Assembly (NCBI GenBank): GCA_006503475.1
Contig: RSEH01000214.1
Span: 20,490-84,489 of the forward strand
DNA: 64,000 nucleotides
Source of the DNA: Stentor roeselii
Taxonomy: Eukaryota > Ciliophora > Heterotrichea > Heterotrichida > Stentoridae
Reading direction: 5' to 3'
Each line of letters opens with the position of its first letter. The stretch's first letter is position 1. The position numbers were made by a program, and so were the translations under genes. The notes below the pieces were generated by a model. It was not told where the DNA came from. It did not search any database and saw only the letters and a program-made list of their open reading frames with translations. This document shows positions 13,539 to 36,847 of the stretch, piece by piece.

Positions 13539-15686
13539 CTACATCACCACAATCTTCTCCTTATCCATCCCCGCTTTTCTCAGTATCTTCTTATAACTCC
13601 TATTAAACCCAGAAGGTCCACAAATCCAAGCTAAGTCAAACCCATCCTTCGCGAGCCCATCCACAATTTCAGGTATATCCTTCTTCTTCGGATTTTCATC
13701 AGTAACAACTTCAAGTTCAAGCCATTTCGCATTCTTAGCAAATTCATTCAAATTATCAATTCCAAATCCATCTTTGTAAGTTCTAAAAAAGACAAACAAA
13801 TGCAACTTGAACACATCTGAACTATTTCCAAACTTCTTATAAGCCATGTCGACCAAGTCAATAAACGGAACAAGTCCAGTTCCTCCAGCAAGAGCTAAGA
13901 ATTTTCCAGACAAATCATGAAGTAGTAGTCCGGGGCCGAGGGGACCTCTGATGGTGACAGGGTCTCCGATTTTAAGTGAATCAAGATAGTTGGTCATTTT
14001 TCCGCCTGGGTAAACTTTATACACGAATTTCAGGTCTCCGAAGGAGGAGTCGTTGATTGGCTTGGAAGATTCGTTTGGACTCCAGGATGATAGGTCTGTG
14101 AAAATGCTTGAGTAGTATCTTTGAACTGATTTAAAACGCTTTTGGAATTTGAACATGAAATGCTTTCCTAACCAGGAGGATTCTTTGCAGGATTGGGATA
14201 CTTTGAAGTCGGAACTTGTTAGGTAAAGGATACTTGTATGTGGGTTTAGTTTTAGCCTGTCTTTAAGGGAAAAGGTTAGATATACACTTGATTGAGGGTA
14301 AAGTGGTGACAGGTATCCAGGAATTTCTGGAATTTTTCCTATGGCTAGTGTTTTTAACATTGAGAAAGCTTTTTTAGTGTGGGTATAAGGGTTGTAGGAT
14401 CCTCCGTAACTACTACAGCCTACCATGTACTTCCCAGCGTCTTCTCCCAAGTTATTTTTAATCATAAAGCTACCTCCAGGATGCGCTCTATAAAAATGTC
14501 TAACATCAATAACAAGTTCATCAGCAAACATGATTTTTTTCCCATTCTTGACCATTTCCATAGCTTCAAAGTGACTAATCTCTTTAAGTTTCGAACTCGG
14601 CAATCTAACCTTATTCCTATAAACTCTCTGAAACGCTTCAAACCCAACAAAAAAAGCAAACAAAATCGCATAAATAACGACTATCAACCCATTGTTACCT
14701 TCCTCATTCAAATCCCACCCGAGATCCAAGTTCATCAGCCCAGCAATAAACATGACATACCCAATAACTCTATGAATCTTGAGTAAAGCCATCGTAATCG
14801 CAGTGTTCTTAGTAAAAACCGTGAAATACCATCCCATCAAGCCGAAAACCACCTGACCGATGACCAAAGCAGCTAAAATATGCCCGATTCTTGAATGTGA
14901 AATTTGATCATCATCAAAGAAGTTATGAGATATTTCTCCTTCTTTAAAAGTCGTCGCTGAGCTGATTAAAGTCAGAATAGAAGTCGCTGAAAGACAGAAA
15001 AAATGAACATAAAACCACCAAGAAGAGGCTTTAAAATAACGAGCTGCTATAATTCCTATTGATGCTAATAATCCCCAGCATATTGTCATTACTCTACCGT
15101 GAGTTGTTCGGTCTTTCTCTGAACTTAATTTTTTTATGGAGAAGTCTTCACTGTTTACTGCGAAGGTCATTTTTGCGGAATCTAAATGGAATTTACATCT
15201 GCTTTTGCCGTGATAACTAACACCTGATGTGCCATCCACATATGCCCATATTATTGATTGGGATGAGTCTGGGGTTATTATAGCGTCAAGGGAATCCCCG
15301 GTGTCGAGCTTTCTTGAGAATTTCACGATGGCTCCTTCGGATGAAGTGTAAGTTGTTGAAATGAGGTTAATGCTGTTTTTGCCTCCTTGATCAGAATCAT
15401 CTAGAGGAAACAGATAATCTGTCACATAGCAATCAGTCACTTCAATGTTCGATCCATCAATCGTTACAAGGTAAATATCAGATTTTGCCATCTGGGATCC
15501 TAGGCCCAATCCACAATAACCGTCGGATATTTTGCACTAAATAAAGGGTACAGAGAGAGTAATATCAATCTCATTGTCACTTTGCCTTATTTCCCAGCCC
15601 AGGGTCATTATATCATCCAGTGAGGTTTCAATATAATCGCCTTGGACTATAAGGTTTACAAAGTGAACAAGCAAAAGGAACGCCAT
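13539..15686 (-). CDS. DOMON - cytochrome b561 - cytochrome b5 - FNR redox fusion, copy A
   Basis: Spliced length 705 residues after removing 15537-15551 (gtaccctttatttag) and 15182-15196 (gtaaattccatttag); the second is stop-free and easily missed. The start at 15686 (MAFLLLVHFVNLIVQG, a signal peptide) matches copy B; the frame stays open further upstream but with sequence absent from the other copies. Domains: DOMON about 20-165; b561 helices about 175-340 with all four heme histidines (HGRVM, YVHFF, HSRIGH, KIHRVIGY); b5 about 350-440 with HPGG and a second ligand in YTHTKKAF; FAD/NAD reductase about 460-705 with RYYSS, GPLGPG, GGTGLVPF and WICGPSGF. Predicted to carry electrons from cytosolic NAD(P)H across a membrane to a lumenal or outside DOMON. 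Acceptor (iron, copper, quinone, ascorbyl) unknown. Confidence 0.9.
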
Positions 15687-16018
15687 ATTTATATTTGAAG
15701 GTTTTACCTTTGATTTGAATGAATTGAACTTAGAAAGTTGAATTTTTCTTTTATTGGGAATAGAGAACTGAAATTCATAAGATGTGGTGAGTGAAGAACC
15801 ATCCTTTTCAAGAGAATAAATACTTAATAAAAGAATGATCATTTTCTTATAATCCTAATATATTAGACTAAAAATAATCTATTTAAAAATTTGCATTGTA
15901 TATCAAAGCTATGAAGAAAAACAATACTATTGCATTTACAAATAATAAATATAATTAAAAACATCGAAACCAAAATCACAGCTTAAGCTCTACTTAACCC
16001 TATTACTTATCTACCTCT
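15687..16018. other. Spacer between redox copies A and B
   Basis: 332 bp. The first 160 bp upstream of copy A stay open in its frame but lack similarity to the other copies, so I treat them as 5' flank. The rest is AT-rich with no gene. Confidence 0.45.
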
Positions 16019-18175
16019 CTACATCAATATAATATTATCCTTAGGCAGTCCAGCTTTTCTCAATAGTTTTTTATAACTTCTATTAAACCCAGAAGGTCCA
16101 CAAATCCAAGCCAGGTCAAAATTACTACTAGCAAGTCCTTTAATAATATTTCTCACATCGTTTTTATTTGGAAGTTCATCAGTAACAATCAGAAGTTCAA
16201 GCCACTTCGCATTTTCAGCTAATTCTTTAAGTCTTTCAAGAGCGAATCCATCCTGAAAACTTTTAAAAAAAACAAACATATTCAAATGAAAGTCTTCTGC
16301 CGTAATTCCAAACTTCTGATACGCCATTTCAACCAAGTCAATAAACGGTACAAGTCCAGTTCCCCCAGCAAGAGCTAAAAAAGTTCCTGAAAGTTCTTGA
16401 AGAAGTAGTCCAGGGCCGAGAGGACCTCTGATCATTACTTGGTCCCCCTCGTTAAGAGACTCAAGATAATTCGTCATTTTTCCATCTGGGTAAACTTTAA
16501 ACACGAACTTCAACAAGCCTGAGGATCTTTCAGTTGTCTCTTGAAGTGGATCTGAACCTTCAGTGAAGTCTGTAAAAATACAGGAATAGTATCTTTTTAT
16601 CAAGTCGAATTTTCGCTTGAAGATAAACATGAAATGCTTTCCTAACCATTGAGGCTCTTTGCAACTTTCAGAGACTTTGAAGTCTGGACTGGATATGTAG
16701 AGCATTCTTGTGTGATGGTTTAAGTTTTTCTTTTGGGTTACTGAAAAAGTCATGTAAATACTTTCTTGAGATTTTAAGGGGACTAGAAATTCTGGAATTT
16801 TGGAGATTTTTCCTATTGCTAAGGATTTTAACATTGAGAAGGCTTCTTCGGAGTGGCTGTATGCGTTGTAAGAGTTACCGTAACTGCTGCAGCCTACCAT
16901 GTACTTGCCAGCGTCTTCTCCAACTGTCCTATTAATCATAAATGAACCTCCAGGATGCGACTTGTAAAAATGACTAACATTAACCACAAACTCATCAGCA
17001 AACATAATTTTTTTCCCTTCCCTAACCATTTCCATGACCTCAAAATGATTCATTTCCTTTAATTTCTCACTAGGCAAAGAAGTCTTATTCCTAAAAACTT
17101 TCTGATAAACTTCCAAAGCAACAAACAAAACCGGTACAATAACATAAATAATAATCATAAATTCCTTGCGATCTTTTGTATTCAAATCCCAACCGACATA
17201 CAAGTTCCTAAGCCCAACAATGAACATAACATACCCAACAAATCGATGAATCTTCAACAACATTAAAGTCACCGTCGTATTCCTGGTGAAAATCTTGAAG
17301 CACGAGCCCATAATGCCAAAAATAGTCTGACCAATGACCAAAGCAGCTAAAAAGTGCCCGGTTCTTGAATGTAAAACTCGATCATCATCAAAACTCTGAT
17401 AAATACTTTTTTCTGCTTTATAAGCACTTGAAGAACTGTAGATTGTGAGAATCGAAGTAGCTAAAAATGAAAGAACATGAACTATGATCCACCAGGGATA
17501 AGCTTTAAAGTACCTCGCTGAAATAATTCCAATAGTCGCTAAAAGTCCCCAAGCTATTGTCATTCTGATTCCATGTCTAGTCCCGTTTTTTTTTGAGTTG
17601 GTATCATCTTCTGAAAAGTCTTCACTAGAATAGGTTTCAGATGGTGATGAAAAATTTATCGTTCTTCTAACTGTTTAGGACTTACATCTGTTATTTCCAT
17701 GATAAGAGACTCCGGACTGGCCGTCAACATAGGCCCAGATGATTGATTGGGAATTATCTGGAATTATTTCCCTGTCGAGGGAATCTCCTGTGTTAAGCTT
17801 TCTGGAAAACTTCACAATTGCAGATTTGGAAGTTGAATAAATTTTTGAAAGGACTTTGATGCTAGTTTTACCGCCTTGATCTGAATCTTCAAGTGGTAAG
17901 GAATGGGTAGTTGCATAACAGTCTTTCACTTCGATTGTATCTTCGTCGATAGTGACTAAATAAATGTCAGCTTTCGACATCTGAGACCCTAGGCCTAGTC
18001 CGCAGAAACCTTTGGATATTTTGCACTAAATGAAGAGTACTTTTAAAGTGATCTCAATTTCGTTGTCGTTTTGGTTTATTTCCCATCCTAGGGTCATTAT
18101 ATCATCGAGTTCTTCTTCGATGTAGTCACCTTGGACCATTAGGACAAAAATTTCCACCATCAAAAACAATCCCAT
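16019..18175 (-). CDS. DOMON - cytochrome b561 - cytochrome b5 - FNR redox fusion, copy B
   Basis: Introns 18026-18040 (gtactcttcatttag) and 17671-17685 (gtaagtcctaaacag) give 708 residues from the ATG at 18175; without splicing the gene appears as two broken pieces. Architecture equals copy A. The DOMON part has QMSKADIY and WAYVDGQSGVSYHG; b561 histidines are in HGIRM, IVHVL, HSRTGH and KIHRFVGY; b5 ligands in SHPGG and YSHSEEAF; reductase motifs RYYSC, GPLGPG, GGTGLVPF and WICGPSGF. Closest relative in the window is adjacent copy A, which suggests a tandem duplication separate from the C/D pair. The linker before the first b561 helix is acidic and Ser-rich and differs from A. Confidence 0.9.
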
Positions 18176-19137
18176 ATTTATAAAGTTTTTAATTTGACGA
18201 GTTGATGAATAATACTTTTCTGATTTAGATGAAAAAAGAATTGGTTCTAAATAATATAGGTTTTATTATTATTAGGGAAAGTTTGAAAGATTTATTAACT
18301 TTTAGGATTTATTTGAAGATTAATATTGGAAAATATTTTGGATATGGATTTTTTCTTTATTTTGAAGTTTTAAGCATGTTTGGAAATGATTCAAATTTTG
18401 AGAATTGCTAGTTGAATATTATTGTAATGATATAAGGAAAATATACTTGAAATATGTAATTTTAACATCAACTCCACTAGTCGTTATTATACAGATATGT
18501 GGAAATGAATTATATTGTTAAATATTAATCTTATTAGCTAATGAAAATTTCGGAATTTATATGATCTAAGTTTATCTATTCTAGTTATTCATTCTAAAAA
18601 ATAGATAAAGTTTCGAAAATTTATCGTATTTTATCTGCAAAGGTATTTTCCCAGTTAAATTCAATAAAAAAAGATTTAATTTCAAATTTTATCTAACTTG
18701 GTAAGATATCTTGTTACTTCATGTCCCTTTAATTTACTTGATATCAATGTCTCTAGGATATAAAATAATTTGAATTGGAGAAAATAAATTCTTGATCGAG
18801 TTTTTATATAATTAAATTAGAATTATTTAGAATTATACTAAATAAATAAGATTTAAGGTAATAAAACTACTTGAATTCAGATGAATTTCATAAAATTTTC
18901 ACAATAACTCACATAACGGAATAAATTTTCATACATCCAGGTCTTAGCAACACCAAAATTAAAGTAATGATAAAAAAGAAATAAAGGATAACGATAATTA
19001 AAATCCTAAAGATGTTTGAAGTAAAATTTATTCATTCATAGTTCATTAAGTATCCAATATTAACTATTTACTTACTAAAAAATACTAACTTTAGATGAAA
19101 AGCCCAATAATTAACCCTCCTTAAAAAAACATCTAAA
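18176..19137. other. Intergenic, strongly AT-rich
   Basis: 962 bp with no supported gene. A 60-codon open frame at 18229-18411 has no recognisable content and poor composition; I treat it as chance. Confidence 0.5.
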
Positions 19138-20259
19138 TTACTCGTTTTTATTAGGAACAGCCGACAAGTCTCTAATAACAAAAACATCATTCATCGCCTT
19201 CATTTTTTCCCATCCTCCAAATACCAACAAATGAGGTCCAATAGGTGTAGAAGTATGTCCATACCTTTGCTGAGGAGGTGCTCCATTGACAGGAACTCGA
19301 TTCCAAGTCATAGTATCCGTATCAAGTATAACAAAATAATCAGTAACATCTCCTTGAACCTTCTGAAAGACTCCATATCCTCCAAACACAAGAATATCAC
19401 TTCCAGAGATATCCATACTATGTCCATAGCAATGTCTTGGCGGGACTCCAGAGACCCTAAGTCGACTCCAGACAAAACTTTCAGTATCCAAGACCCTCAA
19501 GTCATTTAAATAACTTTCTTTAAGTCGACTGCCCATCTTATCACTGACCTGACTTTTATCATAATAAAACCCTCCCTGAATAAGCACATTAGTACCAACG
19601 ACAGTAGCGACATGTCCCATTCTCGGCAAAGGTGCAGGTCCTGAAGTTTCAGGCTGAGTCCAGGCCATAGCTGCAAGATCCAAAACAAACAAATCATTAA
19701 AAAACACGTCTTTATTCCACCCTCCAAAGATATACATTTTCGTCCCAATTAAACTCGCTGAATGATTCAATCGTCCAAGTGGTGCATTGCCTCCTTCAGG
19801 GCCTTGATACCAGGTCATAGTCAGAGGGTCTAAAGCGTGTAAGTCTCTGAAATGCGTGGACCCTGCGCCTCTTCCAGCGAAAATAACGATTCTTGACCCT
19901 GCTAAAACTGCTGAATGACCATATCGAGCAGGAGGAGGAATACCGTTGAGCTTCGGTCGATACCATCTGTTGTCATTCACATCTAAGACAATTGTGTCGT
20001 TTAGATAAATGAAGCCGTCATTCTTACCGGCGTAGTAATGTCCTCCGAAAATAATAAGCGAAGCACCTACTAAAGTCGCAGAATGACCTCCTCTTGGACT
20101 TGGAGGAACTCCCTCTATTGTCGGGTATGCCCATTGCCAGTTTCTTGGCTTGTTCGCAGTCTTTGGAAGGGAAAACGACCCACTTGACTTCACGCTTTCT
20201 TGTGACTTAAGACCTGTCAAGACTTCAGGGTTTGAAAGAGCGGAGTACTTTTCTTCCAT
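19138..20259 (-). CDS. Kelch-repeat beta-propeller protein, 373 aa
   Basis: Six kelch repeats fill residues about 45-365, each with the P-R-x-G/Y-HS...IFGG...ND...LD...W pattern (PSPRGGHSATLVG, PPARYGHSAVLAG, APLGRLNHSASLIG, APLPRMGHVATVVG, PPRHCYGHSMDISG, PPQQRYGHTSTPIG). No BTB or other partner domain is fused. The layout resembles Rab9-effector/HCF-type kelch proteins and the many stand-alone ciliate kelch proteins; it is likely a protein-binding scaffold. It follows CacyBP on the same strand after 17 bp. Confidence 0.85.
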   Translation of the reverse strand: MEEKYSALSNPEVLTGLKSQESVKSSGSFSLPKTANKPRNWQWAYPTIEGVPPSPRGGHSATLVGASLIIFGGHYYAGKNDGFIYLNDTIVLDVNDNRWYRPKLNGIPPPARYGHSAVLAGSRIVIFAGRGAGSTHFRDLHALDPLTMTWYQGPEGGNAPLGRLNHSASLIGTKMYIFGGWNKDVFFNDLFVLDLAAMAWTQPETSGPAPLPRMGHVATVVGTNVLIQGGFYYDKSQVSDKMGSRLKESYLNDLRVLDTESFVWSRLRVSGVPPRHCYGHSMDISGSDILVFGGYGVFQKVQGDVTDYFVILDTDTMTWNRVPVNGAPPQQRYGHTSTPIGPHLLVFGGWEKMKAMNDVFVIRDLSAVPNKNE

Positions 20260-20276
20260 ATTTATTTGAATAACAG

Positions 20277-20906
20277 CTACACTGACGGCTTGTCTTTTGA
20301 CTTCGACCAGGCTTCTGCGATGGTTCTTTTCATGTCGTCGTCGCCTTCTTCGTAGAGGTTTTTCATCATTTTCATTAGACTGTCGCCGGGCTCTGCGTCT
20401 TTGCTTTCTTCTTCGTCTTTGGCGATTAAGGACTTCTTAGGAGTGACTGACTCCCAATGGCCTTTGTCTTTTTTCTTAAGAGTTAAAGAAAAGCCATTTG
20501 ACTTGACAGTTGTCCTGGCGCCTTTAATATCTTTACAGAGTTTTGGAAATTTCAACCTGTAGTTAACACCTTTAAAGTCAACAACTGAAGCACAAACTGA
20601 ATTTTCAGAACTTTCTAAAACCAGCTGGTCCTTAGGGTGAGTTTTAAAACCTTCAAAGCAAGTCACGTAAATTTTTACCTCGTCATCTGTTTGTTCCCAG
20701 GCGAACTTGTCAATAGCTTTCCAAGTCTTATCACTCGTCTCACCCACAGTCGTCACTTTTTCCGTCACCGGGATCAAAGACAGCTCATGACTCAACCGAA
20801 GTCTTTCATTGACTAAAACCGTTTTCGAGTTTTCTCGACTTGCTAACTGCAAAAGTCGATCCAAGTCTTCAAGGTCATTCTGCAATTCGAATCTTCGAGA
20901 ATCCAT
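20277..20906 (-). CDS. CACYBP: Calcyclin-binding protein / Siah-interacting protein (CacyBP/SIP)
   Basis: 209 residues in the family order: N-terminal helical dimerisation hairpin (about 1-50), CS domain (about 65-150, starting KFAWEQTDDEVKIYV and containing GVNYRLKFPKL), and a C-terminal SGS region (about 150-209, with DSLMKMMKNLYEEGDD and IAEAWSKSKD). In animals CacyBP bridges Siah1, Skp1 and S100 proteins in ubiquitin-mediated turnover and has phosphatase-like roles. It shares a 17-bp gap with the divergent NUDCD2 start, another CS-domain cochaperone. Confidence 0.9.
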   Translation of the reverse strand: MDSRRFELQNDLEDLDRLLQLASRENSKTVLVNERLRLSHELSLIPVTEKVTTVGETSDKTWKAIDKFAWEQTDDEVKIYVTCFEGFKTHPKDQLVLESSENSVCASVVDFKGVNYRLKFPKLCKDIKGARTTVKSNGFSLTLKKKDKGHWESVTPKKSLIAKDEEESKDAEPGDSLMKMMKNLYEEGDDDMKRTIAEAWSKSKDKPSV

Positions 20907-20923
20907 TTCAAGGTTTATTAAAA
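20907..20923. promoter_or_regulatory. 17-bp gap between divergent CACYBP and NUDCD2 start codons
   Basis: Both initiator ATGs face outward from this gap, so both 5' UTRs and promoters must overlap each other or the opposite coding region. Regulatory role is inferred from position only. Confidence 0.5.
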
Positions 20924-21463: not shown

Positions 21464-21468
21464 TTAAG

Positions 21469-22680: not shown

Positions 22681-22862
22681 TTATTGTAATTAAAAGGAAT
22701 GAAAAGTTGGAAAATTTTGTTATGATTTGAGAAGAATTAGAAGAATGAGAAGAGAATGGAATTTTTTAAAGATCATTGAAAGAACATTAAAAATTTCTAC
22801 TAGAACCTACAATCATTACCTTCTATATTTATTGTAACTAACTTTTTTCACAATTAAAGATA

Positions 22863-24218: not shown

Positions 24219-24220
24219 TT

Positions 24221-25924: not shown

Positions 25925-26058
25925 ACTTCTATTACTAAAAAGAATAAAAACACTGAAACTCTGATGAAAACTTTTAAAAAACCTAAAAATTCAACTTTAA
26001 CTTAATCCAAAGTTTTAAAATTCATATCCTTCTGCTAAATCATCAACAAATAATTTAA

Positions 26059-27549
26059 ATGGGAGGCAATTCATCTCAATCAAAGCAGTCCACCCCATGC
26101 AAGACCCTTCCAAAGTTTTCATATCTCAATCGTCGCGAAGGAAAACTTCTAGTCTTCGAGAGTTCTCAGCCAAATGTCGACTCCCTTCCTCAAGAAGTTC
26201 GCTGTTACAATGACTCAGCTCTTTGCGAATCAGAAGGCGTGATATTCGTAGCAGGTGGTTCAGAAAGTTCTAAAAATTTAAACTCTTTGTTTTTTTCAAT
26301 TGACACTAACAGTCCACGAGTGAAGCTCTTAGAAGACCTTCCGATACCAAGTAAATGTGGATACCTCTTTCCTCATAAAAGTTCTTTTTTCTATGCTGGG
26401 GGAGTTTCGATCGATTCTTTAACAAGACGAAAAATTCAAAGTCCGATTATGAGATACAACATCTTAAAAGAGACTTGGGAAATTTTTAACCACTCGAATT
26501 TATCCTTCGGTAAAAAAAAAAACCTCCAATTTAAAAATTTGAGAAAACCTGGATTCGCTATTATTAAAAACAAGTTATTACTCTTTGGCGGGTATTTTCG
26601 AGTAGGTAATCAAAGAGTGCCTAATATTCAATGTGTGAGTTTTGACCTTTCTTGTGAAGGTCTTGACTGGAAATTTGAGTCTTTGAACTTTCCAGTGAGT
26701 CTTTATAGTCCTGTTGTGGGTTGCTTTGAAAGTCGAGCAGTGATCGCAGGAGGGAAACTTATGGACTCTTCTAGAAGTTCAGATATTGTCGAGTTCAAAA
26801 AGTCCAGTTTCAAGTTGATGAAGAAAAAAAAATTAACGATTATTGAGAATCATCCACCGATTTATCAGAAGACTTATATAATTATCTTCGCTTTTCCTAA
26901 AGTTCACATTCAAGAAAAAAAGACGAAAGATTGGCTTCAGTTTTCTCTTCCTTCCAACCCGGCCACTTTACTTCCAGTTGAAAAAAATAGATCAGAGACT
27001 CTTTTTCGTAAGCCTCTCACTTTCAGCCCGAACTCGACTGGAGGATATAAAAGTTCTGATAGTTTCAACCCAATTATGACATTTGGAAGTGACACGGCTA
27101 GAAGTTTAGGAGTTTGCACTAATATTGAAGACCTTGATCTTGATATCGACTTTATTATGCAAATTGAAACAGATGAAAAGGTCACCGTTTTTCATAAACA
27201 AGCTATTAGGTTGTTTGGTTTCGCTTGTGAAAAACTAGAAGGTAAGAAATTGACTCCTCTTGAAATTAATCAGATCTCGACACAACTTGGGTTTAAAGGT
27301 TTTGTCAATATTTTAGAGATTTCGGCTGTTTTAACTGAACTATTGCAGAGAAAAGGATATGAAGTGGCGGGATTACTTAAGTTTTACCAAATCGTGCATA
27401 AAGTCCTTGATCGCCCTCGCATTCGCTCGGGGGTTATTTTAATGATGCTTCGGATGAATGAGATTAACAAGACCAAAGAGTGCATCACGGCAAGTGTCAG
27501 CGTTTTTGTTATGACGCGCATTATCAAGATCACTGTTGTTGGGGTATAA
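26059..27549 (+). CDS. Kelch-like propeller protein with N-myristoylation motif
   Basis: 496 residues starting MGGNSSQS, a good N-myristoylation signal (Gly2, Ser6). Degenerate kelch blades fill about 20-290 (EGVIFVAGGSESS, SSFFYAGGVSID, NKLLLFGGYFRVG, ESRAVIAGGKLMD). A Ser-rich linker and a C-terminal helical region (about 370-496) follow; I do not recognise the latter. Likely a membrane-tethered scaffold. It is the first of five plus-strand genes with almost no spacing, and starts 134 bp from the divergent SPX-MFS-like gene. Confidence 0.7.
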   Translation: MGGNSSQSKQSTPCKTLPKFSYLNRREGKLLVFESSQPNVDSLPQEVRCYNDSALCESEGVIFVAGGSESSKNLNSLFFSIDTNSPRVKLLEDLPIPSKCGYLFPHKSSFFYAGGVSIDSLTRRKIQSPIMRYNILKETWEIFNHSNLSFGKKKNLQFKNLRKPGFAIIKNKLLLFGGYFRVGNQRVPNIQCVSFDLSCEGLDWKFESLNFPVSLYSPVVGCFESRAVIAGGKLMDSSRSSDIVEFKKSSFKLMKKKKLTIIENHPPIYQKTYIIIFAFPKVHIQEKKTKDWLQFSLPSNPATLLPVEKNRSETLFRKPLTFSPNSTGGYKSSDSFNPIMTFGSDTARSLGVCTNIEDLDLDIDFIMQIETDEKVTVFHKQAIRLFGFACEKLEGKKLTPLEINQISTQLGFKGFVNILEISAVLTELLQRKGYEVAGLLKFYQIVHKVLDRPRIRSGVILMMLRMNEINKTKECITASVSVFVMTRIIKITVVGV

Positions 27550-27573
27550 GTGTTAAAAATATTATTTATTATA

Positions 27574-28116
27574 ATGAACAATAATCTCACTGTTGACGAG
27601 TCAAGTCTTCTTGTTTGTTTTCAGTTCTTATCTCGCTTTTCCAGTTATTTTCATGAAATCAGTCCAGAAATCAAGGAATTATTGCAAATTTATGAATCTT
27701 TAAAAAATGAAGAGAACATCTTCTCAATGAAACCTTTTCTGAAATTTCAAGACAGGTTCTGTCATCCAGTTAATATTTTAAAAGAAATGAATTTTCAACA
27801 GATTAACTTTCGAAGTCCTCGAGTAGGAGAAATATTTGTTAAGGGTGTTAATTGTGAAATGAATCTTGGGGCGCTGTTGTTGATATCGGAGTTTAAGAAT
27901 GCTCAGTCGAAGATGGTTTTATTTGCAGTGATTTTTCAGGATTATTATGGATATTTTCAATTTGCTGATAAGGAGAGGAAGTACTGGAATATTAGTGAAA
28001 ATAGCTTTTTGAATAAACTCTCGGTTGTTAGGCTTGAAGGGTTTTCGGAACTTGTTGTTTATTCAAATAAGATGAATTATTCCCCGAAGGTTTTGTTTTT
28101 CAATGTAGTTAAATAG
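27574..28116 (+). CDS. Unknown protein, 180 aa
   Basis: The ATG at 27574 (context TTATAATGAAC) lies 24 nt after the stop of the kelch-like gene. The product (MNNNLTVDESS...) looks globular with mixed helix and strand and no membrane segment or known motif that I can name. Codon use matches neighbours. The next gene begins 6 nt after its stop. Confidence 0.6.
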   Translation: MNNNLTVDESSLLVCFQFLSRFSSYFHEISPEIKELLQIYESLKNEENIFSMKPFLKFQDRFCHPVNILKEMNFQQINFRSPRVGEIFVKGVNCEMNLGALLLISEFKNAQSKMVLFAVIFQDYYGYFQFADKERKYWNISENSFLNKLSVVRLEGFSELVVYSNKMNYSPKVLFFNVVK

Positions 28117-28122
28117 ATATAA

Positions 28123-28737
28123 ATGAATCGAATACTTATACAGCAGTATTTTTTAAAATTGTTTTCAACTCTTAGTCTTTCTGCCAGTTTTTTCTTGGCA
28201 GGTTTGTCAATACATTACTCAGGAGGAATCCGTGACCTAAAGTTCTCAGTCCTCGTTCTAGTTTCCTTCATCCTGATATTTTTACATAAAAAGCCTTGTT
28301 TTTTCCAGCTGGTATGTCTCCTGTGCATCAGTTCAATTCAAGGTGTGTTAGTTTCAGCTTGTTTCGTGATGGAAAAAAAGATCCCAGAAGTAACTTTAAT
28401 AAAAGGAATCCTTTCAACCTTCGCTCTTCTAACAAGCATCTTAGGAGCAACTTACTATTCCGACAACATCTTCAAACAAAACCTAGGAAGAGCATGTGAA
28501 CTTTGTTTTTACACTTTTTTAGTAATTTTACTTTCAACAAGACTATTAAATCTAGACCTGCAAGTAAAATTTTACGAAAAAGGATTATTTTTATTGATGA
28601 TCGCGATGTTTATGATGTCATTGCGACAGATCTACTGTTACGAAGAGATAAAAAATCGAAACCACATTCTTGACTCCCTAGTCTTAGGCTTCTGCATTCT
28701 TCAAGTGCTGATAAAAATGCTGGTTGTTTTAAACTAG
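28123..28737 (+). CDS. Bax inhibitor-1 (TMBIM)-like membrane protein, divergent
   Basis: 204 residues with about seven membrane helices. Layout and local similarity fit BI-1: an opening amphipathic segment QQYFLKLFSTLSLSASFFLAG resembles QHLKKVYASFALCMF-type starts, and the C-terminal part (RQIYCYEEIKNRNHILDSLVL) resembles the conserved TQ-x-I-IE-K...D-x-I...DLF segment before the last helix. BI-1 proteins are ER calcium-leak channels that limit cell death. The usual paired Asp residues are not evident, so assignment is moderate. Confidence 0.55.
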   Translation: MNRILIQQYFLKLFSTLSLSASFFLAGLSIHYSGGIRDLKFSVLVLVSFILIFLHKKPCFFQLVCLLCISSIQGVLVSACFVMEKKIPEVTLIKGILSTFALLTSILGATYYSDNIFKQNLGRACELCFYTFLVILLSTRLLNLDLQVKFYEKGLFLLMIAMFMMSLRQIYCYEEIKNRNHILDSLVLGFCILQVLIKMLVVLN

Positions 28738-28756
28738 CTGCTGGTTAATTAGTAAT

Positions 28757-29026
28757 ATGAATGTCCTGCTTGTTTCCAAGAGATGCTGGTAAAAAATAAG
28801 CAGTGCTCCTTGTCAGGCCGCCAGGTTCGTTCTTGATAAAGTCAGTTCTCGCCTTGGCTTCAGTTATCAGGTCGTTTATGTCGACTCCAGTAAAGACCTC
28901 AAGTTGAAATACGCTGCAAAGGTCCCTGTTGTGATCTGTGATGGCAAAGAAATAGCGAGTCTTAAAATCAGAGAAAGTGAAATTCGTGAGTCCTTTCAGA
29001 AGTTGATGGGAATAAATAGGCTTTAA
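28757..29026 (+). CDS. Small glutaredoxin/thioredoxin-like protein (DUF836 type), one intron
   Basis: Hidden by intron 28789-28803 (gtaaaaaataagcag), which splits two exons of 32 and 223 nt; spliced product 84 residues. It begins MNVLLVSKRCCAPCQAARFV, with a CxxC redox site at 11-14 at the end of the first strand, and contains the cis-Pro region KVPVVICDGKE, as in glutaredoxin-like DUF836 proteins (yeast YDR286C, human C5orf63). Role is probably thiol-disulfide exchange. Its stop TAA (29024-29026) shares the final A with the ATG of the next gene. Confidence 0.8.
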
Positions 29027-30213
29027 TGGAAATCGTCAATTTTCAGGTCGGAAACTGTGGAATGAAGATTGGAACAGAATTTTTTTATGAGATTTTCAGG
29101 GAAAGAGTTGAAAGTGGCTTTAGTGATCAGGTTTTTCTTGATAGTCTTCGGCCTAGAACGGTTTTAATTGACTTGGATAAGGAAAATATCGCGAAAATGA
29201 AGGACTTGCAGATTTATCAGGGACTTGATGATTACTTTATCGCGGATAATGGAAGAGCTGGCAATTGGTCTGCTGGTCATTACACTGAAGGTCAGGAGGT
29301 ATTAGAGAAAATAGAGGAAATTACCAGGAAACTTGTTGAAAACTGTGAAAAACTTCAAGGATTTCAAGTTTTTCACTCAGCTGGAGGGTGCTCTGGAGGA
29401 GGTCTTGGCACTTTGATTGTAGAAAGGCTGAAAGACTTGTATTATGAGAAGACTTTACAGACTGTTACTGTTTTTTACAAGGAAGGTGTTGATGATCGCA
29501 TAACTGAACCTTATAATACTGTTTTTAGCATGAACAGTCTTATTCAATTCTCTGATGTTTCTTTTGTCATTTCAAATGAAAGTCTTTTCAAGGTTTTTAA
29601 AAATCGTCTTGATTATGGCTCGGATGTGTTCAAGTCATTGAACCAGTTCGCAGCGAAGGCTTGCTTAGCAGGACTTTACCCTGTTTGCAAAAGAGAAAGT
29701 TCTTTTGGTAGTCTTTACAAATATGCGAATAACTTGGTACCTTTCAGCAGGCTTCACTTTCTGGATATCAGTTTTAATGATAAGGTCTTTTGGGATGTTG
29801 ATTTAACTGATGAGTCTTTTTCACTTGGAAGTAGAGCTGCGGGAAAGTTTTTTACTTGTTTAGGAATCTGCAAAATGAGGAATTTTCGGGAAATTCAAAG
29901 TGAAATTAAAGGGAAAATTAAGGAAAAATCACTTTCCTGGGCTAAAAACTTTAAATTTTTTAATTATCACGTGAAAAGTGATGAGTTTTTTTGCTTAACT
30001 AGCAATGGGACTGGACTTTTGCCACTTTTTAAGGGAGTTAATAAGGGCTTTGAGTATTTGTTTAAGAGAAAGGCCTTTGTGCACTGGTATACTGGTGAAG
30101 GACTGGATTCAATGGAGTTTGAATGTGCTCAAGGTAATTTTCAGGATTTGATTGAAGAGTACCAGAATTATGATATTGAAGGGGAGTTAGAAGATGGGCT
30201 TAAGAATGATTAA
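29026..30213 (+). CDS. Divergent beta-like tubulin, 395 aa
   Basis: Clear tubulin-superfamily member: GNWSAGHYTEG (beta-tubulin GNNWAKGHYTEG), GGCSGGGLGT in place of the GTP-loop signature GGGTGSG, and a C-terminal FVHWYTGEGLDSMEFECAQ resembling beta-tubulin. It is about 50 residues shorter than canonical tubulins, and the MREI autoregulation start is replaced by MEIV. The C-terminal tail is acidic (DIEGELEDGLKND) and could be glutamylated. Ciliates carry such beta-like tubulins in addition to true alpha/beta; altered nucleotide handling is an inference. Starts inside the stop codon of the previous gene. Confidence 0.85.
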   Translation: MEIVNFQVGNCGMKIGTEFFYEIFRERVESGFSDQVFLDSLRPRTVLIDLDKENIAKMKDLQIYQGLDDYFIADNGRAGNWSAGHYTEGQEVLEKIEEITRKLVENCEKLQGFQVFHSAGGCSGGGLGTLIVERLKDLYYEKTLQTVTVFYKEGVDDRITEPYNTVFSMNSLIQFSDVSFVISNESLFKVFKNRLDYGSDVFKSLNQFAAKACLAGLYPVCKRESSFGSLYKYANNLVPFSRLHFLDISFNDKVFWDVDLTDESFSLGSRAAGKFFTCLGICKMRNFREIQSEIKGKIKEKSLSWAKNFKFFNYHVKSDEFFCLTSNGTGLLPLFKGVNKGFEYLFKRKAFVHWYTGEGLDSMEFECAQGNFQDLIEEYQNYDIEGELEDGLKND

Positions 30214-30667
30214 TAACGCATATATTCTAGCTGGTAGGTTCTTCAGTTGATAATTGAATTTAGAATTTTTTGATTCTATTTTTAATTTTTAGATAGAACT
30301 TGATTTTCATATTAATTAAAGTCTTGTTAGCCATTAACTCATCTATTTTTTTCAATTATTTTTTTGTTCATGAAAAATATTTACATATAATAAAACTTTA
30401 TACAACTAATATTGTTTAACCATTTACTTTACTCAATCAATTTTATAATTAGAAAATCATAAAGATAACTAATTCAAACTATCCAGTAAAAGCCACAGGA
30501 AACACCATTCAAAGAAACATCCTCAAGGTATATAAACCCACTGACTAAACTTCCTCATAAAACTTCCTTAATGTTTTGATAAATATCAATCAACTTAAAA
30601 ATAAAACATCTAAATACACAAATTTCCAATCATTTCATATAAAACTAAGTACATATAGGTTACTAAT
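30214..30667. other. Intergenic
   Basis: 454 bp of AT-rich spacer between two convergent genes; nothing recognised. Confidence 0.5.
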
Positions 30668-31780
30668 CTACTTGGGCATATAGGGATAGTAATACATCGG
30701 ATTAGGTTGCATATTCGCATACATCCCATAATACTGAAAATTATTCATAATCGGTACCTGCATAGTCGGCATTCCAGGCATATTAGTCATCCCTTGCACA
30801 GTCTGCATGCCCTTCATATTCATTACCTGCATATTAGGCACACTTTGTGCGAGTGGCACAGAAGCAAACAAAAACGCGCCTTCAGGAAAGCTATTTCTTT
30901 TCTCATGAACCACAGGCAAACTGGCCTTAACAGGACTTCCATCCTTATTAACTTCCTTGAACCCAAGAAGATTGACTCCAGTATTTAAATTTTCTTTTCC
31001 TCTCACAACTTTCTGCACTTCTTTAATGCAGTCTTCACTTAACTGCTGAAAAGTTGGAATGTCTCCAGGGTATTCTTCTGCCCAGACCCGAATAAAGCCT
31101 TTGAGACTTCTGATGTATTTATTGTACTTCAAAAATAAACCTTCAGCTTGACTTGCTGAAAAAGCTTCGAATGAGGAATAAGAAGTCCACAAACAATTCA
31201 TCAAAGCTTTACTTGCTGCGTAGATTTCTTTACTGTCAATGAAAAGTCTTGTCGCTATTTCACTGGAAAAGTTCAACTTTTCCTTATTTTGATTCAAAGG
31301 CTTCAACGGCTTTTTTACTCCTAACAAGGCTTGAAGGATGTTTAAAGCTTCTTCGGTTTTATGAAGAAGGTCACTTGGACATGATTTGATTGAATTCAGA
31401 TAATTTTGAGTGAGGCAGGAAGTCAAAGTCACTGAAAATCGCATTTTTGTTTTTAAGTAGTTGTGATAAGCGATAAAGACTTGAACTAACTCGCATGACT
31501 TGTGGGAATCGATTTGGATTGAAGTTGTTGGAAACCAAGACTGGATCTGAGGGTTCGTGTTTTGGACTAAGAAGTGAATCACCATCAAAGTTCGGATTCT
31601 TGCCGCTGGTGACTTGTGATGAAGCTGTTTTAAGAACATTTCTTTTATACTGTCGAATGGAACTTCTGAAAACGTGTTGTGCATCACTTTTTAGTTATTA
31701 CTTCTTAAGTGCTTTTCTTTTGGCTTGTCGGTGTTACGACGGCCTGTCGCTTTTTTGAACGCGGTTTTGAAGGACTTCAT
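30668..31780 (-). CDS. ANTH-domain (AP180/CALM-like) endocytic adaptor, one intron
   Basis: Intron 31686-31700 (gtaataactaaaaag) restores the N terminus; spliced length 365. The opening MKSFKTAFKKATGRRN and KPKEKHLRMM is the ANTH inositol-lipid binding start (KAT...PKEKH), and the helical core continues to about 270 (ARIRTLMVIHFLVQN). The tail (about 290-365) is Met/Pro/Asn/Tyr-rich (MQVMNMKGMQTV, NPMYYYPYMPK) with no clear clathrin box or NPF. AP180/CALM proteins recruit clathrin and size vesicles at PI(4,5)P2 membranes. Without the first exon the lipid-binding lysines would be lost. Confidence 0.9.
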
Positions 31781-32249
31781 ATTTGAATTATGAATATGGA
31801 AATTTAATGTCGATCGGGTAGTTTAAACATGAGTTATGAGATGGAATGGAGAGTTTTATCATTTGAGAAAATTTTGAGATTTTGTTTGGAGCGTGATAGG
31901 GTCGGGGTTGAATTGTTGGAAAGGACTGAGATCTTTATAGAATTTACAGGAATATTGGAAGGTGTTTAAAGGTATTGAAAACAGAAGTTTAAATAGATTT
32001 TCGATGCGATTAAATGATGATGAATTTTTAAGTTTTTAAAACATCTCACTTATCATTATTATTACTTCAGGTCAGAATTATTTATAATAAAATATAGCGA
32101 TTCAAAAGCTTGAACAAGCAAAAAAGTCGATTCCAATAATACAAATTTTTTCACAAAACTCTCTAAAAATCAGTTAATTCGTAAAGAAAATATTTAAATA
32201 AATCTAAAAATCCCTCTCAAAAAAAATCCAATTAATAAATCTTAACTAA
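31781..32249. other. Intergenic
   Basis: 469 bp between the ANTH gene start and the 3' end of redox copy C. No gene or repeat recognised. Confidence 0.5.
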
Positions 32250-34391
32250 TCACATCAAAACGACCTTATTCTTCTCCAATCCAGCTTTCAAAACCATCTG
32301 ATAATAAAATCGATTAAATCCAGAAGGTCCACAAATCCAAGCCAAGTCGACTCCACCAGTAGCCTTATCACGAATCTCCTCCTGCACATCTTTCAAAGCA
32401 GAATTCGCATGAGTGACAACTTTAAACTCAAGCCAATTAACTTTTTTACAAATTTTTTCAAGTATCTCTAAAGCGAACCCATCTTTTTGATTTCTAAAGA
32501 AAGTAAAAAGCGAGAGTTTAAAACTTTTAGAAAAATCTCCAAAAGTCCTCCAAGCAAGATGCACCAAATCTATAAAAGGAACAAGTCCAGTTCCCCCAGC
32601 CAAAGCAAGGAAATCGCCATCCAAGTCATTTAAAAGTAATCCAGGTCCTAAAGGTCCCTTTAAAGCGATGGAGTCTCCAACTTTTAACTCAGCCAAATGT
32701 TCAGTCATTAATCCCTGAGGATAGACTTTATAAATAAATTTGACAAGTCCTTCTTCTCTCAGGACTTCGTCCTTCGAAGTGACTTCCAACTGCCCAGCCC
32801 ATTCAACAAGGTCAACAAAGAGACTTGAGTAGTACCTTTGAATGAGATTTGACTTTTTCTTGAAGGCAAGCATGAAATGCTTGCCAAGCCAAGAAGGTGC
32901 TTCACATTGTTTGTTCATTTGAAAGTCTTCATTTTTCAAGTAGATGATAAAAGTATTGCTGTTGAGAGGTTTCTGCTCTTTTACTTTGAAAGTCATGAAA
33001 ATCGATTTCGACTCTTTTGAAATGTTCAGGTACCCTGAAGGGTAAGGAATCCGGGCAACTGCCAATGTTTTCAGCATTGCAAAGGCCTTTGAAGAGTGGG
33101 TGTAAGGGTTGAAGTTCCCATCATAACTACTGCATCCGACCATGTACTTCCCCGCGTCTTCCCCGACGCTCTCACTGATTAAAAAGCTGCCTCCAGGGTG
33201 AGACAAGGCGAAATGTTTCACATCAACCACCAAGTCATCAGCAAACATGAGCGCTTTTCCCGCTTTTACCATTTCAAGAGCTTTAAAATGAGTCATTTCA
33301 GGCAAAGACGTCTTAGGCAGTGCCATGCGGCCCCAAAAGAACCTCTGAAGAATTTCAAGGACTACGAAAAACAAGACATTCAAGACAAAGCCAAGTATTA
33401 TCAAGGCCTTGCCCTTGGAACCATACAAGTCCCACCCGACCCAACAGTTATAAAGTCCAGTCACAAATAAAGAATACCCCACAAACTTATGAGCCCTGTT
33501 CATTAAAACCATCATCGAGGTGTTTTTCGTGAAAATCTTAAAGTAAGAACTCGCCATTCCAAATACAACCTGCCCAACGACCAACGATGCAAGAATCATT
33601 CCAACTCTAGAATGCAAAAAAGTCTCATCACTGATAGAATCATAAGGAAACTGCCCTTCTTTAAACAACTGAGCCGAAGTGATAATCGTTGACAGAGAAG
33701 TAAACAAAAGACACAAGAAATGAACGTAAAACCACCACCAGTGCTGTTTGAAGTACCTGGCGACTCCAATTCCTAAAGTAGCTGAGCAGGCCCAAGCCAT
33801 ACTCATTAAAATTCCGTGTTGCTCTTGATCAGCGCTTGATGACTGGAAGTACATGTTTCCTGAAGACGTTGCCCAGGTGAAAGTAGCTGAGTCTTTATAA
33901 GGATTACCGAAGTCTGAATGTTCATGCCACCCTGCTCGGTTGTCCAGGTAGCCCCAGCAGATCTGCGAGTGAACGTCAAGGACAATGTCTTGGTCGAACT
34001 CGTCATTTGTTTGAAGTTTTCTTTTCATCTCGGCGACTAGACCTGTTGCGCTGTCGTAACTCGAAGAGACCAACTCGTAGTCAGAAGAGCCGCCTTCTGC
34101 TTTGTCTGTTTTAGGGCTTCGGTGATTTCGTGACCAGTAGTCTTCGATTGTCACTGATTTGGAATCGGTGAAGGCGGCAAACATGTCGCAGTTTGTCATC
34201 GTTTTACGAAGACCTACTGAACAGTAGCCTTTGGAAATTTTGCACTGTTTAGATGGTACTTTTAAGGTTATTTTTATTTCTTGAGATGAAGTGTCGATGT
34301 CCCAACCCATCGTCATTACCTGGTCGAGTTTTTGCTCGAGGTAGACTGAGAGGACTGGGGAAAGAAGAAGAATTTTGACCAATGATTTCAT
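32250..34391 (-). CDS. DOMON - cytochrome b561 - cytochrome b5 - FNR redox fusion, copy C
   Basis: The frame is open from ATG 34391 to the stop, but homology with copies B and D shows two stop-free introns, 34245-34259 (gtaccatctaaacag) and 33893-33907 (gtaatccttataaag); spliced length 703. Signal peptide 1-16; DOMON about 17-170 (MTMGWDID, TMTNCDMF, ICWGYLD); b561 histidines near 182, 214, 250 and 291 (HGILM, YVHFL, HSRVGM, RAHKFVGY); b5 ligands near 388 and 421 (SHPGG, YTHSSKAF); reductase with RYYSS near 509, GPLGPG, GGTGLVPF near 589 and WICGPSGF near the end. Ends KVVLM, lacking the C-terminal aromatic of plant FNR. If unspliced the protein would carry two five-residue insertions. Confidence 0.9.
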   Translation of the reverse strand: MKSLVKILLLSPVLSVYLEQKLDQVMTMGWDIDTSSQEIKITLKVPSKQCKISKGYCSVGLRKTMTNCDMFAAFTDSKSVTIEDYWSRNHRSPKTDKAEGGSSDYELVSSSYDSATGLVAEMKRKLQTNDEFDQDIVLDVHSQICWGYLDNRAGWHEHSDFGNPYKDSATFTWATSSGNMYFQSSSADQEQHGILMSMAWACSATLGIGVARYFKQHWWWFYVHFLCLLFTSLSTIITSAQLFKEGQFPYDSISDETFLHSRVGMILASLVVGQVVFGMASSYFKIFTKNTSMMVLMNRAHKFVGYSLFVTGLYNCWVGWDLYGSKGKALIILGFVLNVLFFVVLEILQRFFWGRMALPKTSLPEMTHFKALEMVKAGKALMFADDLVVDVKHFALSHPGGSFLISESVGEDAGKYMVGCSSYDGNFNPYTHSSKAFAMLKTLAVARIPYPSGYLNISKESKSIFMTFKVKEQKPLNSNTFIIYLKNEDFQMNKQCEAPSWLGKHFMLAFKKKSNLIQRYYSSLFVDLVEWAGQLEVTSKDEVLREEGLVKFIYKVYPQGLMTEHLAELKVGDSIALKGPLGPGLLLNDLDGDFLALAGGTGLVPFIDLVHLAWRTFGDFSKSFKLSLFTFFRNQKDGFALEILEKICKKVNWLEFKVVTHANSALKDVQEEIRDKATGGVDLAWICGPSGFNRFYYQMVLKAGLEKNKVVLM

Positions 34392-34514
34392 TTTTTACTA
34401 GATTTTTGAACTAGTTTGAATATGTCTGAAATTTTATTGTTTTGGTTGAAATTGAGATAGAATTGGAAGTTTAATGATCAATTTTTGAATCTTCACAAGA
34501 ATATCACGAAGAAT

Positions 34515-34613
34515 TATGTTGATTATTTTGAACATTTAGATATATGTTGATTATTTAAAACATTGAGAAATATGTTGATTTTTTAAACATTTAGAAATTT
34601 TTTATGTTGATAA
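34515..34613. repeat. Degenerate tandem repeat, about 33-bp unit
   Basis: Between redox copies C and D, a unit resembling tatgttgattatttaaacat recurs three times and starts a fourth. The unit is AT-rich and may be a small minisatellite. Confidence 0.6.
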
Positions 34614-34654
34614 TTAACTACTCAGTCATTCTAAAGACTGTAAAAACTAACCTA

Positions 34655-36847
34655 TTACAATAGGACTATCTTAGATTTCACAATTCCATTGTCTATCAGA
34701 AGGTTGTTATAAGATCTGTTAAATCCAGAAGGTCCACAAATCCAAGCCAAGTCAAATCCTTCTTTAGCCTCAGCTCTGATATCCTCTCTAATATTTTTCT
34801 TATTCGGGTCCTCATCACTGACAAGTCTGAATTGTAGCCACGGGCAAGATTCAGCCATTTTATGTAAAATTTCAATTGCGAAGCCGTCTTTCGAAGTTCT
34901 GAAAAATGCAAAAAGTCTCAGTCTAAATTTATCAGTTTTTGAACCATAAGCCTTCCAAGCCATATAAACCAAGTCCAAGAAAGGAACTAGTCCAGTACCT
35001 CCACCAAGTGCAAGATAATTTCCATTCAAACTGCTCATCAACAGGCCAGGTCCCAGGGGTCCTCGAAGTAAAACACTTTCATTTTCACTGAGAGAAGAAA
35101 GATGATTTGTCATCTTGCCTCCTGGATAGACTTTATAGATAAACTTGACAAGTCCATCATCAGTGATCTCCTCTCTTTTAGATAGAATGTTCAGTTCTTT
35201 TTCCCATTGAAAGAGGTCGACAAAGAGGCTTGAGTAGTAGCGCTTCACGTAGCCGATTCTTTTCTTTAGACCTATTTTCTTTCTGTATGAAATCATGAAG
35301 TGCTTTCCGAGCCACTCTGGAGAATTGCAAATGTTGCTCATTTTAAAGTTCGGGTGGCTGAAGTAAATTACACTGGTGTGCTCGTTTAACTTCACTTGCT
35401 TTATCATTGAAAATTTTATGAATACATGGTCTTTTGAGTCAGTACTTGAAAAGTAACCTTCTGGAGTTTTTATTCTTCCGATTGCTAAAGTTTTTAACAT
35501 TGAGAATGCTTTTTCTGAGTGAGCGTAAGGGTTTAAGTCTGCTCCATAGCTGCTGCATCCAACCATGTACTTCCCAGTATCTTCTCCAATACTTTCCTTG
35601 ACCATATACGATCCTCCAGGATGACTGACAATAAAATGTCCGACATTAATAACAAGTTCATCTGCAAACATAAGTTGTTTCCCATCATTGATCATATCCA
35701 TGACCTGCAGATGAGTATATTCAGGTAAATTCTTCTTAGGCAGAGTGATTTTATTCCACCAAAACACCTGCACAATCTCTAAAACTCCGAAGAAAAGAAC
35801 ATTCAAAATAAATCCTATAGTAATCAAAGCCCTTCCCATAGATCCATACAAGTCCCATCCAATCCAACAGTTATAAAGTCCCGCGATGAACAAAGCATAC
35901 CCAACAGCTCGATGTGCTCTATTAAACATAAGAGTCGCATGAGTATTTTTCGTAAATATCTTAAAATACGACGTGCAAAAGCCAAACATAACTTGTCCGA
36001 TGACCAAAGAAGCAAGACACATTCCGACTCGTGAATGTAAAAAAGTATCGTCACTTATTGTCTCATATGGAAACTGACCGTCTTTGAATAGGTCTGCTGA
36101 TGTGATGATTGTTGCAAGAGAGGAAAACATTAAACATATGAAATGAACGTAAAACCACCACCATCGTTCTTTGAAGTATCTGGCAGCTGCTATTCCGATC
36201 GTTGCTGAGAGTGCCCAGGCGACGCTCATAAGAATACCGTGTTTCTTTTTTTCGTCGCTTGATTTCTCGAAGTACATCTTGGACTCACTTGTTGCCCATG
36301 CAAATGTTGCTGAATCTGGCTAGAAATTACCGTAGTCCGAATGTTCTACCCAAAGTCGGTTTGCTCTTTTTGAAGAAGGGTCTAAGTCGATGTAGCCCCA
36401 GCAGATTTGTGACCGGATATCAGGATAAATTTGCTGATCCCATTTATCAGAAGTTTTCAATTTTCTAGTGAAAGTGATATCGATATCCCCATTAGAGTCT
36501 ATATGACTGCCGGTAGATGTAATAGTATAATCATTCTCACCTCCTTCAGCTGCATCAGTCTTGGGAGTTCCATGGTCACGGGACCAGTAGTCTTGAATAG
36601 TCACCACTTTATCCTTATCAACTAAAGCGGCAAACATGTCGCAGTCAGTCATTGTTTTTCTGAGGCCCACCGAACAATACCCCAGACCAATTTGGCACTA
36701 AATAAAGATCACCTTTAAAGTAATACTGATTTCTTGATTAACCTCGTCGATATCCCAGCCCATAGTCATGACACTATCGAGTTGTTGTTCAAGGTAGATT
36801 GAGTAACTCCCTGATAAAAGTAGGAATAACGCCAGATGTGAGGTCAT
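34655..36847 (-). CDS. DOMON - cytochrome b561 - cytochrome b5 - FNR redox fusion, copy D
   Basis: Introns 36698-36712 (gtgatctttatttag, the only GTG donor found) and 36316-36330 (gtaatttctagccag) give 720 residues from the ATG at 36847 (MTSHLALFLLLSGSYS, signal peptide). Same order as copy C and most similar to it: MTMGWDID, TMTDCDMF, ICWGYID in DOMON; HGILM, YVHFI, HSRVGM and RAHRAVGY in b561; SHPGG and YAHSEKAF in b5; RYYSS, GPLGPG, GGTGLVPF and WICGPSGF in the reductase. It is slightly longer through an insertion in the DOMON region (DPSSKRANRL) and a basic insertion (KKIGLKKRIGYVK) just before the FAD motif. Confidence 0.9.

Follow-up and report, generated by a model that had tools for sequence, protein, structure and literature searches.

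Copies A to D of a Stentor roeselii gene family: a predicted route from NAD(P)H to a DOMON domain on one polypeptide

A window of 64,000 nucleotides from the ciliate Stentor roeselii (GenBank assembly GCA_006503475.1, contig RSEH01000214.1, positions 20,490 to 84,489 of the forward strand) carries four related genes, here called copies A, B, C, and D. In each, a DOMON domain, a cytochrome b561 core, a cytochrome b5 domain, and a flavin adenine dinucleotide (FAD)/NAD reductase follow one another on one polypeptide. A preliminary description of this DNA had proposed that these parts form a self-contained route for electrons from NAD(P)H to an acceptor beyond the membrane, and this proposal survives profile searches, a comparison of ligand residues over ten paralogues, and tests of selection on three gene pairs. 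We consider it likely that each of A–D is a self-contained NAD(P)H-driven trans-membrane reductase, with ferric and cupric complexes as the likeliest acceptors. In our best reading, a core of the CYBDOM type, once dependent on ascorbate, would have been switched to NAD(P)H through fusion with a module of b5 and FNR-type reductase (b5–FNR). From the sequences, we infer haem and FAD binding, the direction of electron flow, the membrane concerned, and the acceptor.

Domain order and the ten-member family

The domain order, which the preliminary description had read from motifs, was recovered by the Pfam search that it had called for. In 4/4 copies, five models matched in order along the polypeptide, namely DOMON (E 8.6e-18 to 2.1e-20), Cytochrom_B561 (2.8e-7 to 3.3e-9), Cyt-b5 (4.4e-4 to 9.1e-8), FAD_binding_6 (5.9e-6 to 2.9e-10), and NAD_binding_1 (0.0055 to 0.042), and PF01794 (Ferric_reduct, FRE/NOX) was absent among the matches of A–D at E ≤ 0.1. 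An NCBIfam scan, made with copy C only, gave 17 matches; every one fell within the reductase part and scored below cut-off. When compared with solved structures, a profile of the core (built from 7 of the 10 members introduced below) came closest to NADH-cytochrome b5 reductase (2eix; E 2.3e-17) over its reductase half. A profile of the DOMON (9 of 18 modules) matched dopamine beta-hydroxylase with E 2.3e-5 and, with its Met region aligned, cellobiose dehydrogenase with E 0.0023.

The four genes that had been described as the whole family are real, but they belong to a larger set of ten detected genes (A–J). A protein search with member J as query, run over the same-species assembly of 522 contigs and 44.4 Mb, returned 10 matches among 17 candidates, all of them members of A–J. 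Six members have a single DOMON (A–E and G), two have none (F and J), and two have six in tandem (H and I), so that a DOMON is joined to b561 in A–D and in 8/10 members overall. H (contig C165, positions 1877-6523 of the extracted locus) and I (contig C210, minus strand) are 1519 amino acids long each, with the six DOMONs preceding the b561–b5–FNR part. Pfam DOMON covers six stretches of H (2.1e-70); I is 87% identical to H, and the genome search matched DOMON six times in it. In F (contig C299, minus strand, 2267-4261 of the extracted locus), the core stands behind a different N-terminal region of ~150 amino acids that has no Pfam match at E ≤ 0.1, and J has merely ~35 residues ahead of the first helix.

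Several profile results weigh against the proposed chain of domains. Among A–D, NAD_binding_1 stays below the curated cut-off in all four copies and Cyt-b5 does so in C and D. In the relatives (the scan covered E, F, G, H, and J), the Cytochrom_B561 score falls short of the cut-off in G and H, and J has no match to this model; Cyt-b5 also falls short in G; NAD_binding_1 has no match in E and G and exceeds its cut-off in J only. Furthermore, a profile of the transmembrane part (9/10 members) had no solved-structure match at E ≤ 10. In the weakly matching relatives, the domain assignment is carried by the alignment of the core.

The family tree and the introns give some indication of how these architectures arose. 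J groups with H and I, and F joins the A–D clade under midpoint rooting; these placements of the two DOMON-less members suggest that the DOMON was lost or replaced twice. Every one of the six modules is interrupted at the site of intron 1 of A–D, and the DOMON unit was therefore probably copied as an exon. In the tree, each module of H has as its partner the module of the same number in I, which means that the six-DOMON expansion predates the duplication that produced H and I.

A viral or prokaryotic origin was considered and rejected. Scans of viral contigs gave no relative, and a scan of genome contigs, with search patterns drawn from the reductase alone, gave three loci that match the reductase part only, two of which look like Rieske-FNR proteins by their motifs. 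Separately, contig C307 (minus strand) encodes a protein with one DOMON whose start is signal-like, whose tail is rich in Ser/Thr, and whose C-terminus is hydrophobic, a build that resembles glycosylphosphatidylinositol-anchored AIR12.

Topology, ligands, and the predicted electron route

The preliminary description had assigned six helices to the b561 core. Alignment, hydropathy, and loop charge instead point to a probable five helices after the DOMON, a count that draws on the alignment and the loop charges as much as on hydropathy, and six helices are rejected as a general plan. The difference matters, since five helices would place the b5 and reductase domains opposite the DOMON, whereas six would place both on the DOMON side. 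In 10/10 members, the first inner loop carries a charge of +2 or +3 and the second a charge of +1 to +3; the stretch after helix 5 carries +2 to +5 in 9/10 members and 0 in E. For most members, a cytosolic C-terminus agrees with the hydrophobic segments and with the loop charges read from the sequences.

Other topology data count against this arrangement or fail to favor it. At the threshold used, hydropathy finds five segments in four members (A, B, E, and F), four in another five (C, D, H, I, and J), and six in G. Helix d is the one that goes undetected in C, D, H, and I, whereas in J it is the last helix; for C and D, alignment and loop charge supply the fifth helix. The threshold is not specific: the GGTG stretch of the NAD domain passes it in 9/10 members, E being the exception, and so does a DOMON stretch of H. 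Charges of the outer loops lie between −4 and +2, and E shows no bias, its inner and outer loops being alike in charge. Sequon counts, as a topology test, do not separate the two sides of the membrane: the six single-DOMON members have 0 to 2 in the ectodomain and 0 to 4 in the cytosolic part, and H and I have 21 and 23 in the ectodomain versus ~14.6 expected and 3 in the cytosolic part versus 2.0. As for the signal peptide that had been ascribed to all four copies, the hydrophobic stretch at the start clears the hydropathy threshold in A and B but not in C and D.

Ligand residues were checked in an alignment of the ten members. The four conserved b561 His noted earlier are each present in all of A–D; across the family, those of helices a, b, and d occur in 10/10 members and that of helix c in 9/10. 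In the remaining member, G (contig C393), the helix-c His is replaced by Ser, and this protein may lack the outer b561 haem. Both b5 haem His are present in 10/10 members. In the motif (Y)xHSxxAF, which had been proposed for the second of these, the His is conserved, but the Ser is not general, copy A reading YTHTKKAF. In the reductase, the Arg of the FAD motif RxYS and the Cys of the CGP motif are found in 10/10 members. In GGTG, the Gly that was scored gives way to Ala in 4/10 (E, H, I, and J) and is kept in A–D.

The Met and His that had been put forward as DOMON haem ligands are both present in 18/18 modules of the family, 12 of which come from the near-identical pair H/I, where both residues are kept throughout. 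Homology to cellobiose dehydrogenase and HYP1 makes them candidate ligands. This conservation bears on the idea that the DOMONs are haem free and have a sugar-binding or adhesive role, only the b561–b5–FNR core moving electrons, which we regard as improbable. DOMONs elsewhere do bind sugars, several of the ligands are assigned only by homology, and F and J indicate that the core can stand alone. Yet invariant Met and His residues are not what sugar binding would predict, as sugar-binding DOMONs do not conserve them (PMC10691727). Moreover, the Pfam haem domain CDH-cyt matches six stretches of H (8.7e-35), though it is below cut-off in A–D.

With haem-bearing DOMONs, the following route can be proposed. 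Cytosolic NAD(P)H would reduce the FAD of the C-terminal reductase, and the flavin would pass single electrons to the b5 haem. From there, electrons would move to the inner b561 haem, whose His ligands come from helices b and d, and then through the bilayer to the outer one, bound by His of helices a and c. The DOMON, with its Met/His haem, would receive them next and reduce an acceptor outside the cell or within an endomembrane lumen. The likeliest acceptors would be ferric and cupric complexes, the metal then being taken up by ZIP transporters. For H and I, up to nine haems plus FAD are predicted on one chain. Their six haem-DOMON modules might form an extracellular chain of b haems, so that nine haems and a flavin would make up a one-polypeptide electron wire fed by NAD(P)H, with A–D as its short-range form; we offer this tentatively and consider it doubtful.

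The genomic context of iron, copper, and ascorbate genes was assessed by six-frame, exon-by-exon profile searches of the 44.4-Mb assembly. There was no match to PF01794 (FRE/NOX), PF04030 (ALO), or Nramp, whereas ZIP was matched six times. The searches also gave strong FAD_binding_6 matches in three separate frames, as well as several small b5 frames. The absences and the ZIP matches speak for the proposed reading, at limited sensitivity. These were six-frame searches of one assembly of uncertain completeness, and the b561 profile gave 7 genome matches, all from the A–J family, and missed H, I, and J; because that profile found only 7/10 known members, absence by profile is weak evidence.

Two other acceptors have to be weighed in this context. 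An enzyme resembling an NADPH oxidase, passing electrons to O2 outside the cell or in food vacuoles and producing superoxide for signalling or prey killing, would share the NOX logic of NAD(P)H, FAD, and two membrane haems, and the lack of a PF01794 match means that this role could be vacant. We nevertheless hold such an enzyme to be very improbable. The predicted bis-His ligation of the membrane haems and the Met/His ligation of the DOMON haem would leave no obvious O2 site, and HYP1 reduces ferric and cupric substrates (PMC10784544) and Dcytb reduces ferric ones (PMC6123691). An organic acceptor in the lumen (ascorbyl radical, quinone, or a monooxygenase partner), with metal reduction being incidental, seems unlikely to us. 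Cytochrome b561 of chromaffin granules is a precedent for such an acceptor, b561 proteins are versatile, and the single-DOMON protein of contig C307 could act as a shuttle partner. On the other hand, ascorbate is not an obvious partner in a genome where no ALO match was found, and the six ZIP matches fit metal reduction, although neither point is decisive. On balance, A–D probably reduce ferric or cupric ions.

Gene structure and selection

The coordinates first given for the four copies proved to be exact start-to-stop limits, all on the minus strand (Table 1). The genes lie as two tandem pairs with ~14 kb between the pairs, and each has three exons and two 15-nucleotide introns (GT-N11-AG) at sites that are homologous in 4/4 copies. 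Stentor introns have been described as having a branch-point A at position 10 (PMC9505925). The family introns fit this rule, with A at position 10 in 21/22 inferred introns versus 147/445 GT-N11-AG strings in the 64-kb window. In A–D, TAG (A and B), TGA (C), and TAA (D) all terminate, which entails that the standard genetic code is in use and rules out ciliate code 6 for these genes. Introns of 15 nucleotides combined with this code indicate a heterotrich of the Stentor kind; the introns of Blepharisma are similar, but there UGA is read as Trp (PMC9942806).

In A–D, the b561–b5–FNR part is encoded within a single continuous last exon, and the chance probability of a 550-codon open frame at 37% GC is ~1.5e-17. 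Separate transcripts are unlikely because this one uninterrupted exon carries all three parts. The ratio of nonsynonymous to synonymous substitution rates (dN/dS) is 0.26 for A–B, 0.16 for C–D, and 0.12 for H–I, and the corresponding ratio of proportions of differing sites (pN/pS) does not exceed 0.51 in any domain tested. The three pairs are under purifying selection. The long exon and the dN/dS values together also make it unlikely that these are pseudogenes.

The genes between the two pairs (Kelch, CS, kinase, MFS, tubulin-like, and ENTH) suggest no common function. One of them, at window positions 29026-30270 (plus strand) and read under translation table 6, matches the Tubulin/FtsZ GTPase model (5.2e-40), has no Tubulin_C match at E ≤ 0.001, and is a divergent tubulin-like gene. 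At 26059-28833 (plus strand), table 6 gives a 925-amino-acid frame that reads through six TAA/TAG codons and has no Pfam match at E ≤ 0.001; under the standard code, this frame is broken or intron-containing.

Table 1. Features of copies A–D, in window coordinates
Feature	Positions	Strand	Basis or remark
Copy A gene	13539..15686	minus	spliced translation, 705 amino acids
Copy A DOMON	15240-15617	minus	Pfam
Copy A b561	14715-15101	minus	Pfam
Copy A b5	14331-14534	minus	Pfam
Copy A FAD	13935-14168	minus	Pfam
Copy A NAD	13590-13892	minus	Pfam
Copy A intron 1	15537..15551	minus	15 nucleotides, phase 0, in-frame TAG
Copy A intron 2	15182..15196	minus	15 nucleotides, phase 1
Copy A Met61, candidate DOMON haem ligand	15489..15491	minus	homology to cellobiose dehydrogenase and HYP1
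Copy A His154, candidate partner of Met61 in DOMON haem	15210-15212	minus	homology to cellobiose dehydrogenase and HYP1
Copy B gene	16019..18175	minus	spliced translation, 708 amino acids
Copy B DOMON	17729-18106	minus	Pfam
Copy B b561	17189-17575	minus	Pfam
Copy B b5	16805-17023	minus	Pfam
Copy B FAD	16415-16744	minus	Pfam
Copy B NAD	16070-16372	minus	Pfam
Copy B intron 1	18026..18040	minus	15 nucleotides, in-frame TAG
Copy B intron 2	17671..17685	minus	15 nucleotides
Copy C gene	32250..34391	minus	spliced translation, 703 amino acids
Copy C DOMON	33954-34325	minus	Pfam
Copy C b561	33432-33815	minus	Pfam
Copy C b5	33051-33263	minus	Pfam
Copy C FAD	32646-32891	minus	Pfam
Copy C NAD	32307-32603	minus	Pfam
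Copy C intron 1	34245..34259	minus	15 nucleotides, no in-frame stop
Copy C intron 2	33893..33907	minus	15 nucleotides
Copy D gene	34655..36847	minus	spliced translation, 720 amino acids
Copy D DOMON	36398-36778	minus	Pfam
Copy D b561	35855-36241	minus	Pfam
Copy D b5	35471-35689	minus	Pfam
Copy D FAD	35051-35170	minus	Pfam
Copy D NAD	34712-35008	minus	Pfam
Copy D intron 1	36698..36712	minus	15 nucleotides, in-frame TAG
Copy D intron 2	36316..36330	minus	15 nucleotides

Comparison with known systems

Parts of the architecture have counterparts in known proteins. Fusions of b5 with b5 reductase, such as the C-terminus of nitrate reductase and CYB5R4, share the b5, FAD, and NAD domains with A–D, in nitrate reductase in the same order, but to our knowledge they have neither a b561 membrane core nor a DOMON. 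The cytochrome domain of cellobiose dehydrogenase, to which the family DOMONs are related by profile, has a DOMON fold with a Met/His-ligated haem b; it is soluble and fed by a sugar-oxidizing flavodomain.

CYBDOM proteins, which go by the name FRRS1 in animals, share more of the chain. In plants (HYP1/CRR) and insects (CG8399), they have, as A–D are predicted to, a secreted N-terminal DOMON with Met/His and a five-helix, four-His b561 core (PMC10784544, PMC10691727), and HYP1 has been modelled with five helices, the same four-His pairing, and a Met/His pair in its DOMON (PMC10784544). However, b561 reductases are described as ascorbate-driven (PMC6123691), and HYP1 reduces ferric and cupric substrates using cytosolic ascorbate (PMC10784544), whereas A–D have a fused b5 and FAD/NAD reductase. 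Ascorbate use is a property common to the studied CYBDOMs rather than part of the CYBDOM domain definition. Of the ascorbate contacts predicted for HYP1, the Arg and the Pro are gone from the family (0/10 each) and the Asn is present in 2/10 members (C and D), but these positions were placed by an offset from the helix-d His that assumes no gap. A further difference is that H and I carry six DOMONs; an insect DOMON survey reports two DOMONs in 19/888 hits and, in its available part, does not mention more than two (PMC10691727).

The DOMON-bearing ferric reductases that Naegleria, Albugo, and Phytophthora have in the FRD superfamily resemble A–D in running from NAD(P)H to DOMON on a single chain, with one or two extracellular DOMONs, but their membrane core is a ferric-reductase domain instead of b561, and the available text mentions no b5 (PMC3591440). 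With these DOMON-bearing FRE proteins, the single-chain route from NAD(P)H to DOMON is already known for another membrane core (PMC3591440). Among the titles and abstract openings listed by the literature searches, we found no DOMON–b561–b5–FNR order, no ciliate DOMON proteins, and no protein with more than two DOMONs; the wording “two DOMON” was found, and “six DOMON” and “multi-DOMON” were not. The A–J proteins may already exist unremarked in protein databases such as UniProt.

An NAD(P)H-rewired b561 family would offer a testable account of iron and copper reduction in a ciliate where FRE/NOX and the last enzyme of ascorbate synthesis were undetected, and with the whole pathway on one chain it would be expressible and measurable at once. 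The strongest novelty lies in the six-DOMON members H and I, which are located outside the 64-kb window. If they do form a wire, it could be a new mode of electron export by single cells, and it would be made of folds unrelated to the bacterial multihaem c-type cytochromes; we know of no earlier multihaem extracellular conduit built of b-type DOMONs, and H and I would be the first.

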